The notes beneath the pieces are model-generated. The model did not search any database and was not told the origin of the DNA. It saw nothing but the letters and a program-made list of their open reading frames with translations. A DNA stretch of 48,395 nucleotides from Alphaproteobacteria bacterium (lineage in GTDB: Bacteria; Pseudomonadota; Alphaproteobacteria; Rhodospirillales; Rhodospirillaceae). A program made the position numbers and the translations under genes. The stretch spans positions 1 to 48,395 of the forward strand of contig JAURPI010000041.1 in assembly GCA_030835385.1 (NCBI GenBank). The letters are read 5' to 3'. Each line of letters begins with the position of its first letter. Within the stretch, counting starts at the first letter, position 1. Below are positions 3,382-48,395 of this stretch, one piece after another.

Positions 3382-3482
3382 GCCGTTCGCCGTCTGACCG
3401 CACGGCTTCGCAACAGGGCTGACTTTTTGGCGCTTGGGTGCCACAGTTAAACCTAGAGTTTTGTATGGAAGGGAGACCTGCA

Positions 3483-5030
3483 ATGGCCGGTGACATAAAG
3501 CATTCTATTTTGAATCCAACTGTAACCAAGCGCACATTTTTGGCCGGCTCTGTGGCGTCTTTGGCGCTGAGTGCGCAACCTTTCGGTATTCGTCAAGCGA
3601 TTGCCCAGACAGCGGAATGGGACCTTATCGTAGTCGGAGGCGGAACAGCTGGTATGCCTGCTGCTCTTTTTGCCGCGGATCGAGGCGCCCGCGTTCTGGT
3701 TATCGATAAAGCCCCGCAGCTTGGGGGCACAATGGATCGGTCCAGCGGCCAAGTCGCAGCGGCGGGGACTGTTTGGCAGAAAGAGCAGGGGATCGAAGAC
3801 TCCCCTGATGCTCACTATGACGACGTAATGCGGATCAACCGCAATACCTCTGATCCAGTGTTAACCCGGCTTCTGGTCGACAACGCCGCAGACACACTGA
3901 ATTGGTTTGCCGCTAGGGGCTTTACCGTGATGGACCACCACCCCGTCATGGGCGGTGGTCACGAACCCTTCACTACGCGCCGTTACCAGTGGAGCCCCGA
4001 CCGGGCCCAGGCCTTCCAGAACATTATGGAGCCCCTACTGCTCAAGGCCCAGGCAGACGGTCGCGTCAAAGTCCTCACCGACACCGGGGCCGTTGACCTG
4101 GTTCAGGACGACAGTGGCGCGGTCCGCGGCGTCGTCACTGTGAATGACACTGGAGAGCGGGTGGATTACCGCGCCAAGAACGTGCTGCTGACCAGTGGTG
4201 GGTGCATGTCTAATCCCCGCATGTTCGAAGATCTGCACGGCTTACCGCTGTTCTGCGAGGTCGCGTACCCGTATAGCCAAGGGCAGGGCATCACCCTCGG
4301 TCTCGGAGCTGGCGGTTATGTGCGTGGCGGCGACAAGTACGCCACGCTATTTGGGACCATTCTTGAAAGTGAGTATTTTCCGGCACCCGCGATCGGCAGC
4401 GCGTCGTTGTCTCCGCAGCGGCGCCCTCCCTGGGAAGTGTTCGTCAATGTGCACGGCAAGCGTTTTGTCCGGGAAGACCACCCCAGTGTTGCTCATCGGG
4501 AATACACTCTGGGTCTTCAGCCTGGTCATCGTCATTGGGCGATTTTTGATCAAGAGATACTCGATACCGCGCCGCCGTTTATTCCGCGCTGGTCCCGAGA
4601 AAAGCTCGATGACGCGTTTATCGATCACCCGATGTTCGCTAAGGCTGAAACGCTTGGTGAACTGGGTGTTAAGGCTGGGGTTAATCCTTACAACCTTGAG
4701 CGGGAAATTAGCGCCTATAACGATGGTGTGCTTTACGGCAAACCCGATGCCATGGGGCGTGAACATCGTCCACTGGCCGTTGGTAAAGGACCGTTCTACG
4801 CCATTCGGTTGCAGGGGTGGAACGTGATGTCCTATGCGGGATTGGGTGTAGATGGCCAATTGCGCGTGACGCGGAGTGATGGAAGCCCCATTCCCAACCT
4901 CTATGCCGCAGGCGAAGTTACCGGTAACGCAACAACGTCTGGCCATGCGCTCACTAATGGCATGGGTGTGACACCGGCTTTGACCTTTGGCCGTCTATTG
5001 GGGCAGAGGATCATCCCCTTTACGGCTTAG
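3483..5030 (+). CDS. Exported FAD-dependent oxidoreductase, fumarate reductase/3-ketosteroid dehydrogenase superfamily (copy 1)
   Basis: Flavoprotein of about 515 aa. The start at ATG 3483 is preceded by a strong GGAAGGGAG ribosome site; a GTG at 3438 is in frame but less convincing. The N-terminus carries a Tat-like signal with K-R in place of R-R (TKRTFLAG), a hydrophobic stretch and a possible cut near A-I-A-Q. The FAD-binding Rossmann motif is LIVVGGGTAGMPAALFAADR, and a C-terminal G-E-V-T-G-N-A-T-T-S-G-H-A block closes the flavin site. The substrate is unknown. A paralogue at 43600-45165 shares the H-Y-D-D-V-M, D-H-H-P-V, R-P-P-W-E and T-P-A-[LI]-T-F-G-[RK]-L-L-G blocks and the same K-R signal. 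The gene interrupts an otherwise typical M23-ATPase-yajC order, suggesting insertion. Confidence 0.85.
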   Translation: MAGDIKHSILNPTVTKRTFLAGSVASLALSAQPFGIRQAIAQTAEWDLIVVGGGTAGMPAALFAADRGARVLVIDKAPQLGGTMDRSSGQVAAAGTVWQKEQGIEDSPDAHYDDVMRINRNTSDPVLTRLLVDNAADTLNWFAARGFTVMDHHPVMGGGHEPFTTRRYQWSPDRAQAFQNIMEPLLLKAQADGRVKVLTDTGAVDLVQDDSGAVRGVVTVNDTGERVDYRAKNVLLTSGGCMSNPRMFEDLHGLPLFCEVAYPYSQGQGITLGLGAGGYVRGGDKYATLFGTILESEYFPAPAIGSASLSPQRRPPWEVFVNVHGKRFVREDHPSVAHREYTLGLQPGHRHWAIFDQEILDTAPPFIPRWSREKLDDAFIDHPMFAKAETLGELGVKAGVNPYNLEREISAYNDGVLYGKPDAMGREHRPLAVGKGPFYAIRLQGWNVMSYAGLGVDGQLRVTRSDGSPIPNLYAAGEVTGNATTSGHALTNGMGVTPALTFGRLLGQRIIPFTA

Positions 5031-24624: not shown

Positions 24625-25566
24625 CTACTCCAGGTCTCGGGCCACCCGAAAGCCGAATAGATGATATGACGTGGGTTCTGGGTCGCGGCCTCTAAAACTG
24701 CGCTCCTGTCGTAACAGTCTGCTGCGCCAACTGCCGCTGCGTATAGCGCGCTTCTCGCATGCGCCTTCTACCTCGTACGCGCTGCCGTCGACAGGTTGGT
24801 CAGGGTAGAGGACAGGAGAGCAATCTTGTGTCCACTCCCAAACATTGCCGATCGTGTCATGTACCCCATAGACATTTGGTTTGAATTGACCGACGGCGGC
24901 GACCATCGCGTATCCATCGGCGCATGGCGCCGCCATATCCATACTGGTGCCACTACCTGCAATGAGACCGGGGTCAGCGGCAGCTGTCTGATCAAGGACA
25001 TTGCCGTATTCGCAAACCTTTGAATCGTCGTCACCCCAGAACCACTTTGTGTCGACACCGCCACGGGCGACGTATTCCCATTCGGCCTCCGACAGGAGCC
25101 GATATCGCTCACCCGTTTGTTCGCTGAGCCAGTTCACATAGTCCTGCGCTTCTGTCCAATACACACAAACAATGGGATCGTTCTCTGCTATGGGTCGGTC
25201 GTAGTCTGGGTCTTCCCAGGTTTGGCCAAAGCGCCGGCGGTCGCCCCCCCAGACGCGGCAATCAGATGCTTGATGCCCGGTGTCTGCTACAAAAGCCCGC
25301 CACTCACCGACTGTGACCTCGTATTTTCCGGCCGCGAACGGCTTTGAAATTGTGACAGTGCGAATGGGACCGCGAGGCCGCATTTCGCCGGCGCGCATGG
25401 GGTCAATGAAGTCTGAGCCCATTTCAAAAGTACCTGGTGGAATGACCACCATTTCGGGGCAAGTCTCGCAGTCTTTAAAAGCTGGCGCCGGAGATTGGGC
25501 TTGAGGGGTTGTGGCGAAAACTAAGCACAACGCGGTTAATGCGGTGCAATATCCCAGTTTGGTCAT
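24625..25566 (-). CDS. Exported SUMF1-fold (FGE-sulfatase domain) protein A
   Basis: Protein of 313 aa with a signal peptide (cut near Q-A-Q). The mature N-terminus carries F-K-D-C-E-T-C-P-E-M-V-V-I-P-P-G-T-F-E-M-G, the usual opening of SUMF1 domains preceded by a D-C-x-x-C-P-E-M motif. G-K-Y-E-V-T, S-E-A-E-W-E-Y-V-A-R-G-G and G-N-V-W-E-W follow in family order. The C-terminal region reads I-R-S-G-S-W-R-S-R-L-L-R-Q and has no catalytic cysteine pair, so it is not a sulfatase-activating formylglycine enzyme. It has eight cysteines positioned as in paralogues at 25750 and 38859, which suggests disulfides. Divergent from copy B across 183 bp. Confidence 0.86.
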   Translation of the reverse strand: MTKLGYCTALTALCLVFATTPQAQSPAPAFKDCETCPEMVVIPPGTFEMGSDFIDPMRAGEMRPRGPIRTVTISKPFAAGKYEVTVGEWRAFVADTGHQASDCRVWGGDRRRFGQTWEDPDYDRPIAENDPIVCVYWTEAQDYVNWLSEQTGERYRLLSEAEWEYVARGGVDTKWFWGDDDSKVCEYGNVLDQTAAADPGLIAGSGTSMDMAAPCADGYAMVAAVGQFKPNVYGVHDTIGNVWEWTQDCSPVLYPDQPVDGSAYEVEGACEKRAIRSGSWRSRLLRQERSFRGRDPEPTSYHLFGFRVARDLE

Positions 25567-25749: not shown

Positions 25750-26706
25750 ATGGTTCGTTGTTCGTATTTAGGGTTATTGGTAGTTATGACAGTCGCGGGG
25801 TCGGCTATTGCTGCTGAACATTACCGTCCGGGTACATCCTTTAAGGATTGCGAGACTTGCCCCGAAATGGTGGTGCTGCCCTCCGGCACATTCATGATGG
25901 GATCAACGGCAGAAGAAACAACCAAAGCAGAGGTGCGCGCAGATGCAGCAGAGCGTGAACAACCCAAGCATGCGGTTACTCTCGCCAAACCATTCGCTAT
26001 TGGAAAGTACGAAGTCACCCTGGCTGAGTACCGTGCTTTTGTAGAGGCCACCAATCGTCCAGACCCAGATCGTTGCATTACTTGGACCGAGGCGACGGAT
26101 ACGTGGGGCGAAGTCGAAGGGGCGTCATGGCAGAACGCTGGGTTCTATCAAGGTGAGAATCATCCCGTAGGGTGCTTAGACCTCAAAGATGTGCGTGACT
26201 ACAGCGCGTGGTTGTCAGAAATCACTGGCGAACGGTATCGCGTCCCAAGTGAAGCGGAATGGGAATATGCAGCGCGTGGCGGTACGGCAACAAATCAATC
26301 CTGGGGCGACACGATGGAAGACATGTGTCGTTTTGCCAACGCCTCGGATCTTACGAGAGCAGATGTCCATAAAGGTGTACGCGATACGCCAACACGGTTT
26401 TTCGAATGTCGCGATGGTTACGTCTACACAGCACCGGTGGGGTCCTTTCCGCCGAATGCTTATGGCTTGTATGACATGGTCGGCAACATCTGGGAGTGGG
26501 TGGAGGATTGCTTCATCATTGGGTACGACGGTGCGCCGTCTGACGGCTCTGTGCGATACGATCCCAACAATTGCGATCGACTTATCGTACGCGGAGGAGG
26601 GTGGTATGCCCGCAACTGGTTTATGCGACCGGCGGGCCGTAGTCGAGAATATCCCGAATATCGCTCAACTACTTTAGGATTGAGGGTGGTTCGGGAGCTT
26701 GATTAA
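25750..26706 (+). CDS. Exported SUMF1-fold protein B
   Basis: Protein of 318 aa with a signal peptide (cut near A-I-A-A-E). The mature start has F-K-D-C-E-T-C-P-E-M-V-V-L-P-S-G-T-F-M-M-G, nearly the same as copy A. It shares G-K-Y-E-V-T-L-A-E-Y-R-A-F, S-E-A-E-W-E-Y-A-A-R-G-G and G-N-I-W-E-W. The C-terminal block I-V-R-G-G-G-W-Y-A-R-N-W-F lacks the FGE cysteines. A good G-G-G-A-G-G-T ribosome sequence precedes the ATG. Cellular role unknown; the fold in other families binds or modifies small molecules or proteins. Head-to-head arrangement with copy A suggests local duplication. Confidence 0.86.
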   Translation: MVRCSYLGLLVVMTVAGSAIAAEHYRPGTSFKDCETCPEMVVLPSGTFMMGSTAEETTKAEVRADAAEREQPKHAVTLAKPFAIGKYEVTLAEYRAFVEATNRPDPDRCITWTEATDTWGEVEGASWQNAGFYQGENHPVGCLDLKDVRDYSAWLSEITGERYRVPSEAEWEYAARGGTATNQSWGDTMEDMCRFANASDLTRADVHKGVRDTPTRFFECRDGYVYTAPVGSFPPNAYGLYDMVGNIWEWVEDCFIIGYDGAPSDGSVRYDPNNCDRLIVRGGGWYARNWFMRPAGRSREYPEYRSTTLGLRVVRELD

Positions 26707-38858: not shown

Positions 38859-39779
38859 TTACATGCTCGGTTCTATTTCCCGAACAAGCCTAAAACCGAG
38901 TGAGTAGACTGCGATGTGGGGTGAGGGGGCTTTGCTACGGTTTGCGGCCCTCAAATGTCCAGGAAAGATGTTGCTAAAACCGCCACCGCGATCCAATACG
39001 GCGTTGCAAGTACCGCCATGGCCCCAGGCGGAGCCATCTGTCGGCGCATCAACGAAAGAGTCTCGATAGCAATCAGCCATCCATTCCCAGACATTGCCTA
39101 TGGTGTCATACAAGCCGAACCCATTTGGGCGGTATGAGCCAACTGGAGCAGTGCCAAACCCAACTCCATCATCACAGTTCACCGCGTTCCATTGAGGCAC
39201 CTCGGCTTTGGCGCTTCGGTCTGACACATTTGCGTATTCGCAGGCATTATCTGCACCACCTGGAAAAGAATAGGCGGCTTGGGTGCCACCGCGTATTGCG
39301 TATTCCCACTCGGCTTCCGCTGGCAAACGATACGTGTGTCCGGTCTTCTGGGTCAGCCAGTCGGCGTATGCGACGGCATCCCACCAACTGACACAAACCA
39401 TCGGATGATCATCTGATACGCCGTAATCGGGATCGAGCCAGGAATTGGCATCTTCAAATGCGAGCCGGGTTTCATTCCATATCAAGCACCTAGCATTGCC
39501 CCAATGACCAGTCTCGTTGACGAACGCCGCGAATTGTTTTCGGGTGACTTCATATTTTCCGATTGCGAAAGGATTGGCGATTGTGACCGTCCGAACAGGT
39601 CCTTCATCACCGCCTCGGTCACCTTCATCTTCGGGTGCCCCCATATCGAATTGCCCTGCTGGGATAACGACCATCTCGGGGCAGTCAGAACAATCACGGA
39701 TGGTGTCACCCGCAACCCTCGGACCACTCGCGCAAGCGGCAAGCAGAGGTAGAACAATTGTGCAGATAGCGAATCGCAT
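38859..39779 (-). CDS. SUMF1-fold lipoprotein C
   Basis: Protein of 306 aa with a lipoprotein signal ending L-L-A-A-C. The mature start reads I-R-D-C-S-D-C-P-E-M-V-V-I-P-A-G-Q-F-D-M-G; then G-K-Y-E-V-T-R-K-Q-F-A-A-F, A-E-A-E-W-E-Y-A-I-R-G-G and G-N-V-W-E-W. Like copies A and B it lacks the FGE active-site cysteines but keeps eight cysteines in matching places. Its start overlaps the SnoaL-like gene stop by one base (TAATG), so it is probably translated by coupling and may belong to the thiC transcript. Confidence 0.87.
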   Translation of the reverse strand: MRFAICTIVLPLLAACASGPRVAGDTIRDCSDCPEMVVIPAGQFDMGAPEDEGDRGGDEGPVRTVTIANPFAIGKYEVTRKQFAAFVNETGHWGNARCLIWNETRLAFEDANSWLDPDYGVSDDHPMVCVSWWDAVAYADWLTQKTGHTYRLPAEAEWEYAIRGGTQAAYSFPGGADNACEYANVSDRSAKAEVPQWNAVNCDDGVGFGTAPVGSYRPNGFGLYDTIGNVWEWMADCYRDSFVDAPTDGSAWGHGGTCNAVLDRGGGFSNIFPGHLRAANRSKAPSPHIAVYSLGFRLVREIEPSM

Positions 39780-43599: not shown

Positions 43600-45165
43600 C
43601 TAAACATCAAACTCCAAAATCCGTTCGCCCAGCAATTTGCCGAAGGTGATGGCTGGTGTGACCAACATGCCACCACAGATAGCACGACCTGACGTCGCTC
43701 CGGTTCCGAGCAATTCACCGGCTGCGTAAAGCCCGCCAATTGGTGTGCCATCCTGTTTTATGACCTGAAGGTCCTTGTTGACGGCAATACCGGCGAATGT
43801 GGTGAGGAACCAACTTTGTGTTCGAATGCCGTAATACGGTCCTTTCTCGATGGACAAAGGCATATGAGTGCGGCCAAGAGCGTCTTTGCCACTTGCCTGG
43901 GCGATATTGTATTCGGAGACCGTGCTGGACAGACCATCGGCGTCTACACCCATTTTCTCGGCCAACTCTTCCACAGAGTCAGCCTTGAAAAAGTTGTGGT
44001 ACCCCTGGCTAAAGGCCTCAGCGACGTCATCTGGATCCATCATACCCATAAATCCACCTGAAATGAGTTTGGGCGCTTTGGTATGTATTTCGTGATCCCA
44101 GACCATCCAACATTCTTCGCCTGGCTGCTCTGCCAAGGCCTCTTCGTAGGCGGCGTGACTTAGAATATCTTCCTGAAGGAAGCGCTTGCCCTTTGCATCG
44201 ACAATAATTTCCCAGGGCGGCCGATCTCCGGGGAAGTGACGAGCGACAGCGACCATGGGAGAAGGATAGTCTTCATCCCCAAGAATAGCGCCGAACAGCG
44301 GTAGGTGGTTCTCGCCATAGCGGACATAGCCGCCTACAGATGTGCCGAGCGTAATGCCGGCTCCCTGACTATAGGGATAGGACACGTCTGAATAATCTGG
44401 TGCGCCTTCTAATTCCTCGAACATTTCGGCATTTGATGCGTAGCCACCGCTTGTGAGAACCACGTTCTTGCCCATGAACTTGTCAGTCTTGCCATCTGCG
44501 TCGACAGTGCTAACACCGACGACCTGCCCGCCATCATCTTGGATGAGATCGCTGACCTCTGTGCTCGTTTTGATCGTGACGGCACCAGAGGCTATCAGTG
44601 GCTCAAGTTTTTCTTCAAACAGCGCCAAAATGCCCATACCGCCTTCTTTGTGCCAAGCGTAGCGGGCGTGACTGTAAGGCTCGTGGGTAGTGCCGGTCAC
44701 CGGATGATGGTCGTAGACCTCAAATCCATTGTCCGTCAGCCAATCAAATGCTTCAGCGGCATTCTCAGTCGCCAGCCGCAGGATATCCGGATCAGCCGTG
44801 TTACCGCTGATCTTCATAACGTCGTCGTAGTGGGATTGAGGACTATCCTCGGTAATGCCTTTGGATTTTTGCAGCTTTGTTCCAGCGGCGCTCATTTGGC
44901 CAGTTGAGAGAAAGAGGGTACCGCCGATAACCGGAGCGGCCTCAACGATAAGAACTTTGGCGTTCCGTTGGCCCGCGAAGATCGCAGCAGGAAGACCGGC
45001 GGTTCCGCCGCCGACAATAATGACGTCCCAAACGTCTTCCGCGTCCGACGCATCTGAGCAGCCTCCTATGCCAATACTTGCGGCTACGGCGCTTGCCGCA
45101 GAGAGGAATTGCCGTTTGGACAGTTTTTGCGTCAGAGGACTCCAGAAATGGGTCTTTTTCGTCAT
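43600..45165 (-). CDS. Exported FAD-dependent oxidoreductase (copy 2)
   Basis: Protein of 521 aa. The N-terminus has a Tat-like K-R signal (S-K-R-Q-F-L-S-A) followed by a hydrophobic stretch with a possible lipobox at G-I-G-G-C. The FAD motif is VIIVGGGTAGLPAAIFAGQR; closing flavin block G-E-L-L-G-T-G-A-T-S-G-R-A. It shares many blocks with copy 1 at 3483-5030, including D-H-H-P-V and R-P-P-W-E. Substrate unknown: the fold includes fumarate and urocanate reductases and 3-ketosteroid dehydrogenases. It is divergent from the methyltransferase-like array across 238 bp and precedes the unknown gene at 43581. Confidence 0.86.
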   Translation of the reverse strand: MTKKTHFWSPLTQKLSKRQFLSAASAVAASIGIGGCSDASDAEDVWDVIIVGGGTAGLPAAIFAGQRNAKVLIVEAAPVIGGTLFLSTGQMSAAGTKLQKSKGITEDSPQSHYDDVMKISGNTADPDILRLATENAAEAFDWLTDNGFEVYDHHPVTGTTHEPYSHARYAWHKEGGMGILALFEEKLEPLIASGAVTIKTSTEVSDLIQDDGGQVVGVSTVDADGKTDKFMGKNVVLTSGGYASNAEMFEELEGAPDYSDVSYPYSQGAGITLGTSVGGYVRYGENHLPLFGAILGDEDYPSPMVAVARHFPGDRPPWEIIVDAKGKRFLQEDILSHAAYEEALAEQPGEECWMVWDHEIHTKAPKLISGGFMGMMDPDDVAEAFSQGYHNFFKADSVEELAEKMGVDADGLSSTVSEYNIAQASGKDALGRTHMPLSIEKGPYYGIRTQSWFLTTFAGIAVNKDLQVIKQDGTPIGGLYAAGELLGTGATSGRAICGGMLVTPAITFGKLLGERILEFDV

Positions 45166-45403: not shown

Positions 45404-46585
45404 ATGACCATAGAAATGAGTAACCGGCGCAGATTCTTGCTCGGGACGTCTGCTGCCGCCGCTGTTGCTTTACCTTCTTTGAAAGCGATTGCTGAAACCG
45501 CCAGTTGGGATGTCGAGTGGCGCGGAACGACAGGAATATTTGAGCGCTTACCGACGCTAGATGAAGAGAACGGGCAGGACTTCTACCGCGGTTTTCGTTA
45601 TTGGATAAATCGAGATTTAATCTCAGCAGCACGCCGTAGAGCGTTGGAAATATTGGAAGAAAACGGCATTGCCCCTGATGCAATAATTCCCATGGAGCAG
45701 GTGATGGCTCTGATGGAAAAAGACCACATCATGGGTATGAGTGTGCTGGCCTGGGAAAATACACAGCAAGCTATGTGGGGCCGAGTACAGGATCTGTACC
45801 ACGAGAATGCCGATCTATATTTGGGCGAGTTGGAGGCGACAGCCAAACTTGGTCCGGGCACTTTGGAACTGAGTCCTGACCTAGAGATTCCTCAGTACGC
45901 CAGTTATGAAATACACCTTCAGCCCGGAGGGTATGTGGGTGATCCGTTTGCTGGCTATATCTATGTCCACGGCGAAAATGTGGTGTTTAGAAACGGCAAC
46001 TATCAGGACGATGCCCAGGTTAGCTTGGCGCGCCGGGTTCCAGGGCCAAAAGATGGCCGCATTGAACGAGTTTTGGAGCAGGGCTGCAGTTCAGGGCAGT
46101 TTACCCTGGCTCTGAAGAATAAATGGCCGCAGGCGGAAGTCTGGGGCACAGACGTGGCCGCACCGATGATTCGTTACGCTCATATGCGGTCAGTCGAACT
46201 GGGACTGGAAACTCATTATCTTCAGGAACTGAACGAAGACAGCCAGTTCCCGGATGATCATTTCGATGTGGTGACCAACAACCTCCTGTTTCATGAGGTT
46301 CCAGCGAAAATAGCTCGCGGAATTATTGAGGAAGCCTTCCGAACACTAAGACCTGGCGGGGTTTTCTACCCCATTGATTTGTTCACCGGTAATCCGCCGA
46401 ATGAGACTGCATTTGGCAAATTTTGGGCTTGGCGGGATTATCGATGGAATGAAGAAGTTTGGCGGATGGAATACACAGCGCTTGATATGGCGGCCGAGAT
46501 GAAACGAACCGGCTTTATTGTGGAACAAGGTCCTGCGGCCCGGCGCGGCACCAAAGGCAATATTATGGGAACTAAGCCCGCTTAG
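45404..46585 (+). CDS. Twin-arginine-signal SAM-methyltransferase-like protein 1
   Basis: Protein of 393 aa; AAGGAG lies 7 bp before the ATG. Residues 1-31 form a Tat signal: S-N-R-R-R-F-L-L, an alanine-rich core and cut site A-I-A. Residues about 40-205 are a conserved N-terminal region I do not recognise, with F-E-R-L-P-T-L-D and E-I-H-L-Q-P-G-G-Y-V-G-D-P. From about 218 a class I methyltransferase fold begins: V-L-E-Q-G-C-S-S-G-Q-F-T (SAM loop), the acidic D250 after strand 2, F-D-V-V-T-N-N-L-L-F-H-E and L-R-P-G-G-V-F-Y. Ends M-G-T-K-P-A. First of three tandem copies; 24 bp to the next. Confidence 0.88.
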   Translation: MTIEMSNRRRFLLGTSAAAAVALPSLKAIAETASWDVEWRGTTGIFERLPTLDEENGQDFYRGFRYWINRDLISAARRRALEILEENGIAPDAIIPMEQVMALMEKDHIMGMSVLAWENTQQAMWGRVQDLYHENADLYLGELEATAKLGPGTLELSPDLEIPQYASYEIHLQPGGYVGDPFAGYIYVHGENVVFRNGNYQDDAQVSLARRVPGPKDGRIERVLEQGCSSGQFTLALKNKWPQAEVWGTDVAAPMIRYAHMRSVELGLETHYLQELNEDSQFPDDHFDVVTNNLLFHEVPAKIARGIIEEAFRTLRPGGVFYPIDLFTGNPPNETAFGKFWAWRDYRWNEEVWRMEYTALDMAAEMKRTGFIVEQGPAARRGTKGNIMGTKPA

Positions 46586-46609
46586 ATCCGGCTTTAGAGG
46601 AATAGCGAA

Positions 46610-47797
46610 ATGCTTAATCGAAGAACTCTGTTTCAGGCTTCAACAACGATTGGTGGCGCCGTTGCCGCTTTGTTTGGTGCCCGCAAAGCACACGCAGCAC
46701 TACCCACAGCTGCTGATGTCGAGCCGAGAGGGACAGATCGCCGTTTAGAGCGCCTGCCGACATTGGAAGCGGAAAGCAGAGAAGACTTTCTTACGCGCTT
46801 TCGGACCTGGGTGAATAGCGATGTGCGCCGCGCCGCAGCAGCGCGGGGCGACAAAATTATGCGGGAGAAGGGCCTCGACCCCCGTGGCGACATGACCTAC
46901 GAGGAGGCGGTTTCTCACCTCGAACACGACCATATCGTAGGGCTGAGTGGTCGTGCATGGATTAGCGCCCAGCAGATCATGTGGAAAAATCTGCAGGATG
47001 AATTTTACAACAACGCAGATGCCTATCTCGCCGAAATGGAAGCGGCGGATAACAGGGGGCCGGGCAAACTTGAATTAAACCCAGATATGGAGATACCGCT
47101 TTACTGCAAGCATGAAATTCATATGCAACCAGGCGGTTATGTTGGCGACCCACTGGGTGGTTACGTCTACCATTACGGCACCAATAACTTCTGGGAAGGC
47201 CGCAACAGCCAGGACGAAATGGACACTCAGCTGGCTAAAGCTGTGCCTGTGCCGAAGGATGGTAAAATTCAACGTATCCTACATATGGGCTGTAGTTCTG
47301 GGCAGTTAACACTTCGTCTGAAGGAACTCTATCCAGCCGCAGAGGTTTGGGGAGTCGATGTTGGCGGTCCCATGGTTCGTTACGCGCACATGCGAGGTGT
47401 CGACCTTGGCGTTGAAGCAAACTTCCGCCAAGCCTTGGCAGAAGATACGGGTTTCCCCGATGGTCATTTCGATATCGTTACATCGTTCTTATTATTCCAC
47501 GAGGTCAGCTCGGAGGGAGCTGAAGCTATTATTAACGAAGGCTATCGCCTCTTGCGGCCGGGTGGGGTGTTTTACTCCCGTGACCAGAACGATTGGTCCA
47601 AGTTGCCGAATTCATCGGCGTTCCAATTATACCAACGCTATTGGATTAACCGCTGGAACCACGAGGTCTGGCAGCGGGAGCACCGTGCTAATGACTATCC
47701 TAAGCTGCTAGAGCAGGCTGGGTTTATGGTTAGCTCACCTCGCCAAGGCAGAAGCGCCAGGTCTCAGGCCTCGTTGATGGGAACAAAACCGGCCTAA
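46610..47797 (+). CDS. Twin-arginine-signal SAM-methyltransferase-like protein 2
   Basis: Protein of 395 aa with signal M-L-N-R-R-T-L-F-Q, a hydrophobic core and cut site A-H-A. It shares R-L-E-R-L-P-T-L-E, A-D-N-R-G-P-G-K-L-E-L-N-P-D-M and E-I-H-M-Q-P-G-G-Y-V-G-D-P with copy 1. The SAM loop reads L-H-M-G-C-S-S-G-Q-L-T with an acidic V-D-V after strand 2; F-D-I-V-T-S-F-L-L-F-H-E and L-R-P-G-G-V-F-Y follow. It also ends M-G-T-K-P-A. Intergenic distance to copy 3 is 114 bp and contains two hairpins. Substrate and location of action are unknown. Confidence 0.88.
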   Translation: MLNRRTLFQASTTIGGAVAALFGARKAHAALPTAADVEPRGTDRRLERLPTLEAESREDFLTRFRTWVNSDVRRAAAARGDKIMREKGLDPRGDMTYEEAVSHLEHDHIVGLSGRAWISAQQIMWKNLQDEFYNNADAYLAEMEAADNRGPGKLELNPDMEIPLYCKHEIHMQPGGYVGDPLGGYVYHYGTNNFWEGRNSQDEMDTQLAKAVPVPKDGKIQRILHMGCSSGQLTLRLKELYPAAEVWGVDVGGPMVRYAHMRGVDLGVEANFRQALAEDTGFPDGHFDIVTSFLLFHEVSSEGAEAIINEGYRLLRPGGVFYSRDQNDWSKLPNSSAFQLYQRYWINRWNHEVWQREHRANDYPKLLEQAGFMVSSPRQGRSARSQASLMGTKPA

Positions 47798-47798
47798 T

Positions 47799-47844
47799 CC
47801 ATACTTTCAGTGTATGGGCACGTCCCTCACTTGTATTGGACGTG
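47799..47844. promoter_or_regulatory. Two inverted repeats between methyltransferase-like copies 2 and 3
   Basis: CCATAC / GTATGG with a 7-nt loop lies at 47799-47817, directly after the copy 2 stop. CACGTCC / GGACGTG with a 12-nt loop lies at 47819-47844. Neither has a clear T tract, so attenuation, RNA processing or an operator are all possible. Confidence 0.4.
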
Positions 47845-47911
47845 AGTTTGTAAGCCCTTATATTTTGGGTGCGTGTCCGGTAGCGGGACGGGGAACTTTT
47901 GAGAGGTCTTC

Positions 47912-48395
47912 ATGCTTGATCGACGCAATTTATTCTCTGCGCTGACCGTATTTGCGTCCGCGATTGGGAGCATTTTTGGCAGCCGTGAGGCGAATGCCGC
48001 AAAGCCCAGCTTTAAGGGGGATTTGGACCCACGTGGGACTGTAGGTCGCCTCGAACGATTGCCGACATTGGATCTAGAAAGCCAACAAGATTTTCTAACC
48101 GGATTCCGAAAGGACATGGGGCGAGCTTTTCGTCGTGCAGGGTCGCAGCGAATGGTAGCGTTATTTGAGGCAAAGGGGCTGGATGCATTTTCCGATCCGT
48201 CTATGGAGACCATACTTGAGATCGCTGAGAATGATCACATCCTCGGAATGCACGTACGGACCTGGGTGAGCATGCAGCAGTTCACATGGAGCACAATTCA
48301 AGAGGTGCTTTATCGAGATCCCGAAAAATATCTGGCTGAGCTAGAAGCCGCTGACAACGCGGGACCGGGAACCTTAGAACTCAACCCAGACATGG
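47912..48395 (+). CDS. Twin-arginine-signal methyltransferase-like protein 3, partial (runs off window)
   Basis: An open frame from ATG 47912 (GAGAGG ribosome site) to the window edge gives 161 residues. Signal M-L-D-R-R-N-L-F-S with cut site A-N-A is followed by R-L-E-R-L-P-T-L-D, E-N-D-H-I-L-G-M and A-D-N-A-G-P-G-T-L-E-L-N-P-D-M, matching copies 1 and 2. The methyltransferase region would lie beyond the window, so its presence is inferred. Confidence 0.85.
   Translation, partial: MLDRRNLFSALTVFASAIGSIFGSREANAAKPSFKGDLDPRGTVGRLERLPTLDLESQQDFLTGFRKDMGRAFRRAGSQRMVALFEAKGLDAFSDPSMETILEIAENDHILGMHVRTWVSMQQFTWSTIQEVLYRDPEKYLAELEAADNAGPGTLELNPDM

Follow-up and report, generated by a model that had tools for sequence, protein, structure and literature searches.

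Near the end of a 48,395 basepair contig from a member of the Rhodospirillaceae (Alphaproteobacteria), three adjacent open reading frames (ORFs; positions 45404–48395, forward strand) encode paralogous proteins that each begin with a twin-arginine (RR) leader and an A-x-A cut site, followed by the same N-terminal domain; a class I methyltransferase domain, of the kind that uses S-adenosylmethionine (SAM), forms the C-terminal part of the two complete copies. We refer to the whole contig as the window (contig C31 of a genome, G000, that is 99.58% complete and comprises 3.28 Mb in 47 contigs). To judge from their sequences, copies 1–3 are probably exported through the twin-arginine translocation (Tat) system. 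We further propose, with somewhat less than even confidence and by analogy with a known Tat substrate, that the folded copies would leave the cytoplasm with SAM or S-adenosylhomocysteine (SAH) as a bound group.

Twin-arginine leaders of the window array

Copy 1 (P0001; 45404..46585, 393 residues) and copy 2 (P0002; 46610..47797, 395 residues) are complete, and copy 3 is present as its first 161 residues (47912..48394), its frame running off the contig end. With cut sites placed by eye, the leaders read NRRRFLLG..KAIA (copy 1, M1–A30, 45404..45493, cut after AIA), NRRTLFQA..KAHA (copy 2, M1–A29, 46610..46696, cut after AHA) and DRRNLFSA..EANA (copy 3, 47912..47998, cut after ANA); each displays the RR motif, the uncharged h-region and the A-x-A site of a Tat substrate. 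An alternative ATG at 45416 would give copy 1 a shorter n-region. The initial annotation, made from the letters alone, had described three adjacent paralogues with these leader features, and all three frames bear it out. Its ‘array of three’ is accurate for the window and too short for the genome: the remainder of copy 3 lies on contig C47 (G000:C47:1-705), followed by one more copy, and the close relative L031 has five copies in a row. The nearest relatives found for copy 2 come from metagenome-assembled genomes of the Rhodospirillaceae (95% identity in L031 and 86% in L032); copy 1 is 99% identical to L031:6795-7976 over 358 tree columns, and both halves of copy 3 are 94.4% identical to L031 copy 3. 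The additional copy on C47 pairs in the tree described below with L031 copy 5; L031 copy 4 has no partner row from the genome of the window, its counterpart there being lost or unassembled.

Leaders across the family were scored by rule, with no trained predictor: either by the published TatP motif (as quoted in the part of PMC6085387 consulted) together with at least 12 uncharged residues, or by a rule of our own. The TatP-based rule was matched by 43 of 45 leader-bearing family sequences (rows), by 1 of 49 leaderless rows and by 18 of 494 other genes, taken from the rest of the window and from fetched parts of the same genome; the corresponding figures for our own rule were 44/45, 0/49 and 32/495 (one of the 32 being copy 3). 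The labels ‘leader’ and ‘leaderless’ were themselves set with the RR pattern, and the independent controls are the background rate and the tree. Measured against that background, the export-type leaders that had been proposed hold up well beyond the three window copies. Of the 44 leader rows that match our own rule, 41 have an A-x-A site; of the 43 that match the TatP-based rule, 39 have a Lys or Arg within eight residues past the uncharged stretch. Ala, Gly, Ser and Thr make up much of that stretch. Residues 1–34 of the copy 2 structure model have predicted local distance difference test (pLDDT) values below 50. The genome has one match to TatC, the Tat component searched for (E 4.6e-72).

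Cysteine content, at 1.5 per chain in leader rows (n = 45) and 3.7 in the leaderless rows outside the sister group (n = 43), is a weak sign of a periplasmic location, because the closest leaderless sisters of the leader copies (n = 6) also average 1.5; the low value may reflect the history of one clade, and is not proof of a periplasmic protein.

Inheritance of the leader in an expanded family

A search of the genome with copy 2 returned 49 matches, one of which (on contig C36, E 3.2e-4) was read as an unrelated methyltransferase and rejected. Two of the 48 remaining family stretches are the halves of copy 3, leaving 47 genes, 13 with a leader (12 RR and one GR) and 34 without. The expansion is patchy across the 41 genomes compared, this one included: all seven genomes of the genus gave 43–46 matches among the best 46 candidates and four others of the same bacterial family gave 23 (G007), 46 (G009), 34 (G011) and 46 (G022), and in the remaining 30 there were 0–5 matches, all weak (best E 3.6e-8). 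With a profile of the N-terminal domain, matches were found in 25 of 385 sampled alphaproteobacterial genomes (best 9 candidates per genome) and in 4 of 398 genomes sampled across the phylum (best 8 candidates per genome), each count including the present genome, and four genomes of another alphaproteobacterial family held 17–67 matches to copy 2. Among 36 ORFs from 30 loci in ten genomes, a set in which some frames overlap, are cut or run too long and some are generic methyltransferases, an RR leader was seen by eye in one (L108 of G139). Two contigs of the window's genome begin with the identical end of a gene for the small partner protein described below (C28:1-134 and C22:1-134; a 44-residue translation), and the edges C1:3-119 and C2:3-119 score alike; repeats of the family seem to break the assembly, and the copy number may be undercounted.

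For the phylogeny, ORFs of this genome were taken at E up to 1e-15 and those from elsewhere at E up to 1e-20, yielding 102 rows from which weaker, generic methyltransferase matches are excluded. Eight rows (fragments, out-of-frame extensions and one row open at one end) were kept out of the tree; L048, with an open 5′ end, was placed in the tree and left out of the 93-row residue counts given below. The resulting tree of 94 rows, computed from residues 36 onward (that is, with the leader excluded) in a quick IQ-TREE search supported by the Shimodaira–Hasegawa-like approximate likelihood ratio test (SH-aLRT) only, with no bootstrap, places all 45 leader rows in a single 52-row clade (SH-aLRT 99) together with six leaderless rows and one row whose 5′ end is open. 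The leader is thus present in 45 of the 51 assessable rows of the clade. Four changes of leader state suffice, at least three of which are forced by well-supported branches, as compared with a mean of 31 when the states are shuffled; we read the four as one gain and three losses. On this tree the leader behaves as an inherited trait, which argues against a chance RR pair.

The possibility that the leaders are chance occurrences or annotation artefacts could draw on the weak Pfam TAT_signal scores detailed below, but the low background rate of such leaders (18/494, against 43/45) and their descent within one clade of a tree built without them lead us to reject a chance RR and make this explanation as a whole very improbable. 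In four pairs of related copies the leader accumulates nonsynonymous changes faster than the mature part (dN 0.043–0.304 versus 0.005–0.070), with the RR pair retained; the ratio of nonsynonymous to synonymous change (dN/dS) in the mature part is 0.031–0.069 in three pairs, and the fourth (versus L032) is saturated.

A leaderless sister lies directly downstream of a leader copy at five loci (L073:10289-11413, in the genome of the window, L039:9206-10339, L040:9203-10327, L041:9218-10330 and L037:3024-4142). Between the stop codon of the leader copy and the sister's ATG there are 14 nucleotides in L040, L041 and L073, either 5 or 26 in L039 (depending on which start is used) and a single nucleotide in L037. 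Such gaps are too short to hold a leader, and the sisters look real. Such pairs, with gaps of 1–26 nucleotides, are consistent with an alternative in which the proteins work in the cytoplasm or at its membrane face, where SAM is supplied, and the leader stays uncleaved as an anchor or is a relic of targeting; the partner protein found beside 5 of the 13 leader copies of this genome likewise lacks a leader wherever its start could be read. An anchor, which the initial annotation had offered as one solution, is nevertheless disfavoured by the A-x-A site in 41 of 44 leader rows, by an uncharged stretch of small and polar composition (Ala, Gly, Ser, Thr) and by the retention of RR in an otherwise faster-changing leader, and we regard work on the cytoplasmic side as unlikely.

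The SAM site and a candidate mechanism

Methyltransf_25 (PF13649) matches residues 223–319 of copies 1 and 2 beyond the Pfam cut-off, with E values of 2.4e-17 (copy 1, domain at 46049..46582) and 2.9e-19 (copy 2, domain at 47255..47794), and all 45 members of set A1 at E up to 1; the part of copy 3 inside the window, which is N-terminal only, matches nothing. The model of copy 2 has a mean pLDDT of 86.1 and a predicted TM-score (pTM) of 0.85, and its C-terminal half is assigned to the class I methyltransferases both by Pfam and by Foldseek against the PDB. Both complete copies contain the glycine loop of motif I, with an intact G-C-S-S-G, and the acid of motif II. The class I fold and intact loop first proposed for them therefore stand, with the qualification that copy 2 carries His225 in place of the motif I acid (ILHMGCSSG, residues 223–231, 47276..47302).

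That position is Asp or Glu in 88 of 93 rows (40/45 leader rows, all 6 sisters and all 42 other leaderless rows), including Glu in copy 1 and in the C47 half of copy 3 (ILEVG). The exceptions are His in copy 2, in its L031 and L032 orthologs and in one L032 paralogue, and Val in L034. In all 93 rows (45 with a leader, the 6 sisters and 42 further leaderless ones) the acid of motif II is kept as Asp or Glu, and D288, H297 and E298 are invariant; among the 45 leader rows, G227 is Gly in all and G231 in 42. The histidine of copy 2 aside, the constraint on the SAM site appears much alike with and without a leader.

SAM is made in the cytoplasm. SAM synthetase, AdoHcyase (SAH hydrolase) and the PNP/UDP-phosphorylase family are each matched once in the genome, and by eye none of the three matches carries a leader at its likely start; a SAM cycle outside the cytoplasm is not visible, because each of these enzymes is single and leaderless. 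The puzzle raised by the initial annotation, an export-type leader on a protein that would use cytoplasmic SAM, stands. Its suggestion that SAM might have an outside source is weakened: the three families searched include no exported member of the SAM cycle, a SAM transporter not being among the targets of that search.

These results bear on two alternatives. In the first, the proteins are exported and their fold no longer works with SAM, serving instead as a periplasmic binding protein, lyase or isomerase. The cytoplasmic origin of SAM, the leaderless SAM-cycle enzymes and the five leader rows with His225 (four, copy 2 among them) or Val225 (one) fit this idea, but leader rows preserve the motif II acid (45/45), G227 (45/45) and G231 (42/45) under a constraint like that of leaderless rows, and we consider it rather unlikely. 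In the second, a free periplasmic pool of SAM, maintained by uptake or efflux, would support normal turnover. Other enzymes with cytoplasmic cofactors in the genome do seem to bear leaders, namely the short-chain dehydrogenases/reductases (SDRs) at L159, L163, L164, L079:9995, L089:7542 and L078:14130; set against the leaderless SAM-cycle enzymes of the three families searched, they leave this second alternative improbable.

The SDRs are an observation in their own right. Sec- or Tat-like leaders precede the NAD(P)-binding motif in L159, L163 and L164 (by eye, among the best 30 of 58 SDR matches in this genome), and leaders were found by rule in L079:9995-10879, L089:7542-8615 and L078:14130-14909; NADP-oxidoreductase-like proteins with a leader occur at L089:8628-9389 and, in one further case, at L046:4644-5432. 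Should their export be genuine, the question would extend beyond methyltransferases.

We favor the bound-cofactor reading because the SAM site remains strongly constrained and the three families searched showed no exported enzyme of the SAM cycle. According to this scheme, the leader copies would derive by one leader gain from a leaderless family that is itself most likely a cytoplasmic two-gene enzyme, comprising the methyltransferase and a small partner of about 115 residues. The precursor would fold in the cytoplasm and bind SAM or SAH before export; its RR leader would then be recognised, the folded protein would cross the inner membrane, and the leader would be cut at A-x-A, with the cofactor retained as a prosthetic group. 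The enzyme might subsequently shuttle methyl groups between compounds outside, or use the bound sulfonium unspent. That SAM or SAH is a permanent prosthetic group of periplasmic enzymes passing methyl groups from one extracellular compound to another, and that the lineage exports nucleotide-cofactor enzymes (leader-bearing SDR and NADP-binding proteins) more generally, is a broader proposition that we think doubtful.

The closest parallel is Zymomonas glucose-fructose oxidoreductase (GFOR) and its kin, which likewise combine an RR leader with a cofactor made in the cytoplasm. GFOR differs from the present family in fold and in cofactor, and its NADP is non-dissociating. The Tat system carries folded, cofactor-containing proteins, and the title of a 1999 paper by Halbig and colleagues states that efficient export of NADP-containing GFOR needs the RR motif and a cofactor-induced structural signal (both as given in the part of PMC6708511 consulted); the Tat signal of GFOR is cleaved on export (PMC4628093, likewise in part).

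Several points weigh against export with a bound cofactor. Tight SAM binding is proposed by analogy with GFOR, and the word ‘tightly’ does not occur in the portion of PMC4628093 consulted. The absence of the motif I acid from copy 2 and four other leader rows could perhaps mean weaker SAM binding, and the existence of leaderless sisters indicates that the body of the protein is usable without a leader. The support for export itself is in silico, from motif rules and the tree. Pfam TAT_signal reaches E up to 1 in only 4 of the 45 A1 members (best 0.007); copy 1 scores 15.2 bits against a cut-off of 22.7, and copy 2 is not listed. The TAT_signal model is short and insensitive. One leader copy of this genome (L078:10349-11557, on contig C6) has GR in place of RR, which could mean that export has been lost, that the change is tolerated or that the sequence contains an error, and the leader of copy 2 gives a dN/dS of 1.15 against L031, over few sites. 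The idea that leader copies sit in Tat-rich neighbourhoods was not supported: by a rule that missed some leaders, Tat leaders occur in 5 of 119 neighbouring genes (one of them copy 3), against 7 of 187 near leaderless copies. What the sequences themselves display is the leader, its inheritance, the conserved SAM site, an unassigned N-terminal domain and the partner; we infer the export as such, the bound cofactor, the reaction and the substrates.

If the proteins are exported, enzymes with a SAM fold, many per genome, would stand outside the compartment that makes SAM, and would offer a test of SAM as a bound, reusable group or of a common methyltransferase fold turned to another use. The literature searched, represented mainly by titles and the beginnings of abstracts and with subscription papers thinly covered, contained no account of a SAM methyltransferase being exported.

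The N-terminal domain, a small partner protein and neighboring genes

The N-terminal domain (residues 40–215; 45521..46048 in copy 1 and 46727..47254 in copy 2, where it contains EIHMQPGGYVGDP) was the part of the protein that the initial annotation could not assign, and it still resists assignment. Residues 40–205 have no Pfam or NCBIfam match above cut-off or with a credible score. A PDB sequence profile gave five matches at E up to 10; the best of them (E 0.036) was with a short pre-mRNA-processing factor 40 chain and was rejected as chance. Modeled alone, the domain is predicted to be largely helical (pLDDT 83.5, pTM 0.72; helices only, from residue 17 on), and none of 64 PDB fold matches at E up to 10 reaches E 0.001; no known family in Pfam, NCBIfam or the PDB was thus found to cover it. 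The E-I-H-x-Q-P-G-G-Y block belongs to this domain, and H171 is invariant in 93/93 rows, the leaderless ones included. The domain is common to the 34 leaderless genes of the same genome and, on this sequence evidence, is not special to the exported copies.

Proteins of the UbiE/Methyltransf_25 kind (PF13649, PF08241) share the C-terminal fold, the motif I glycines and the motif II acid; the present family differs from them in its helical N-terminal domain of about 180 residues that lacks a match, in the RR leader of one clade and in the histidine of copy 2. Foldseek aligns nearly the whole length with Rv2258c (5f8e), DsyB (7wdq), SgvM (8rxf) and RedM (8tjj), but with TM-scores (query length) of 0.38–0.41 and root mean square deviations of 15–19 Å, and from the model we read only the methyltransferase half as corresponding to these two-domain enzymes. 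The N-terminal domain of DsyB, Rv2258c and SgvM is a winged helix; the helix-only model and the PDB fold search, in which nothing reached E 0.001, provide no match to such a domain.

A partner protein of about 115 residues is encoded beside 23 of the 48 family stretches of the genome (within 1 kb of 5/13 leader copies and 18/35 leaderless rows). Its profile has 29 matches there, 24 within 1 kb of a family member, a distance that takes in about 5% of the genome; the other five comprise one on C14, where there is no family member, one 14 kb away on C32 and three at contig edges. Partner genes occur in 11 of the 41 genomes, exactly the 11 with the expanded methyltransferase family, and 25 members were collected from 23 fetched loci (for example, L092:10474-10833 and L084:9468-9824). 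Two members scanned gave no Pfam and two no NCBIfam match, and no leader was seen in members whose start was read. On C31 and C47, the contigs of the window array, the partner has no match.

These gene arrangements bear on a further alternative, compatible with export of a bound cofactor, in which a leader copy and a leaderless sister, the partner, or both cross as a complex on one leader. PaoABC provides a precedent for such hitchhiking (PMC4273604, in the part consulted). The close leader/leaderless gene pairs and the partner genes within 1 kb of 5/13 leader copies would suit it, in that some leader copies do have a gene for a leaderless protein next to them. The complex is a postulated one, however, and the window array has neither such a neighbor nor a partner match on its two contigs. 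We think this, too, unlikely; given its compatibility with the preferred reading, the likelihoods that we attach to the alternatives do not sum to one.

The methyltransferase and partner look like an old two-gene unit, because the two genes are neighbors in Stenotrophomonas ginsengisoli (L055) as well as on sphingomonad plasmids (Sphingomonas pJE1, a Sphingobium plasmid and two Novosphingobium plasmids; L168–L171). On pJE1, WP_087573421 has the same N-terminal domain and methyltransferase, with no leader seen, and is annotated only as a class I SAM-dependent methyltransferase; the adjacent partner, WP_087573420 (L168:10152-10511), is annotated as a hypothetical protein. The surroundings on pJE1 (an MFS transporter, a TonB receptor, dehydrogenases, MmgE/PrpD, FAD oxidoreductases and hydantoinase-type genes) have a catabolic look; three of the five fetched plasmid stretches carried no annotation. 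Scans of genes neighboring the family by Pfam and NCBIfam covered a selected few (10 and 4). Two unnamed families, the N-terminal domain and the partner, thus co-occur in environmental alphaproteobacteria, on sphingomonad plasmids and in a Stenotrophomonas. The fold of the methyltransferase half is known; the N-terminal domain and the partner are unassigned, and the predicted compartment is unexpected.

Divergently transcribed from the array is an FAD flavoprotein (43600..45165, reverse strand) that comes close to the flavocytochrome c subfamily (225.5 bits against a cut-off of 285.45) and has a leader of its own (KR, and a possible lipobox). It remains beside the array in L031 and L032. Six of the eight members of its cluster (cluster 6) lie within two genes of a row of the leader clade (in the window, L031, L032, L043, L051 and L084); the loci in the window, L031 and L032 are orthologous, giving about four independent loci, and the neighbor in L043 is a leaderless sister. 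The association is suggestive only. A second flavocytochrome-c-like FAD protein with a KR-type leader is encoded at 3438-5030 of the window.

Elsewhere in the window, three proteins that resemble formylglycine-generating enzymes (SUMF1-type, by eye) have export-type starts (24625-25566, 25750-26706 and 38859-39779); their cluster (cluster 2) has 15 members in eight fetched loci. A gene for a Rieske oxygenase whose C-terminal domain is that of vanillate O-demethylase (L031:15408-16595; Pfam was run on this L031 gene only) lies within several kb of leader copies, as do members of its cluster at L032:14620-15792 and L036:2231-3397.

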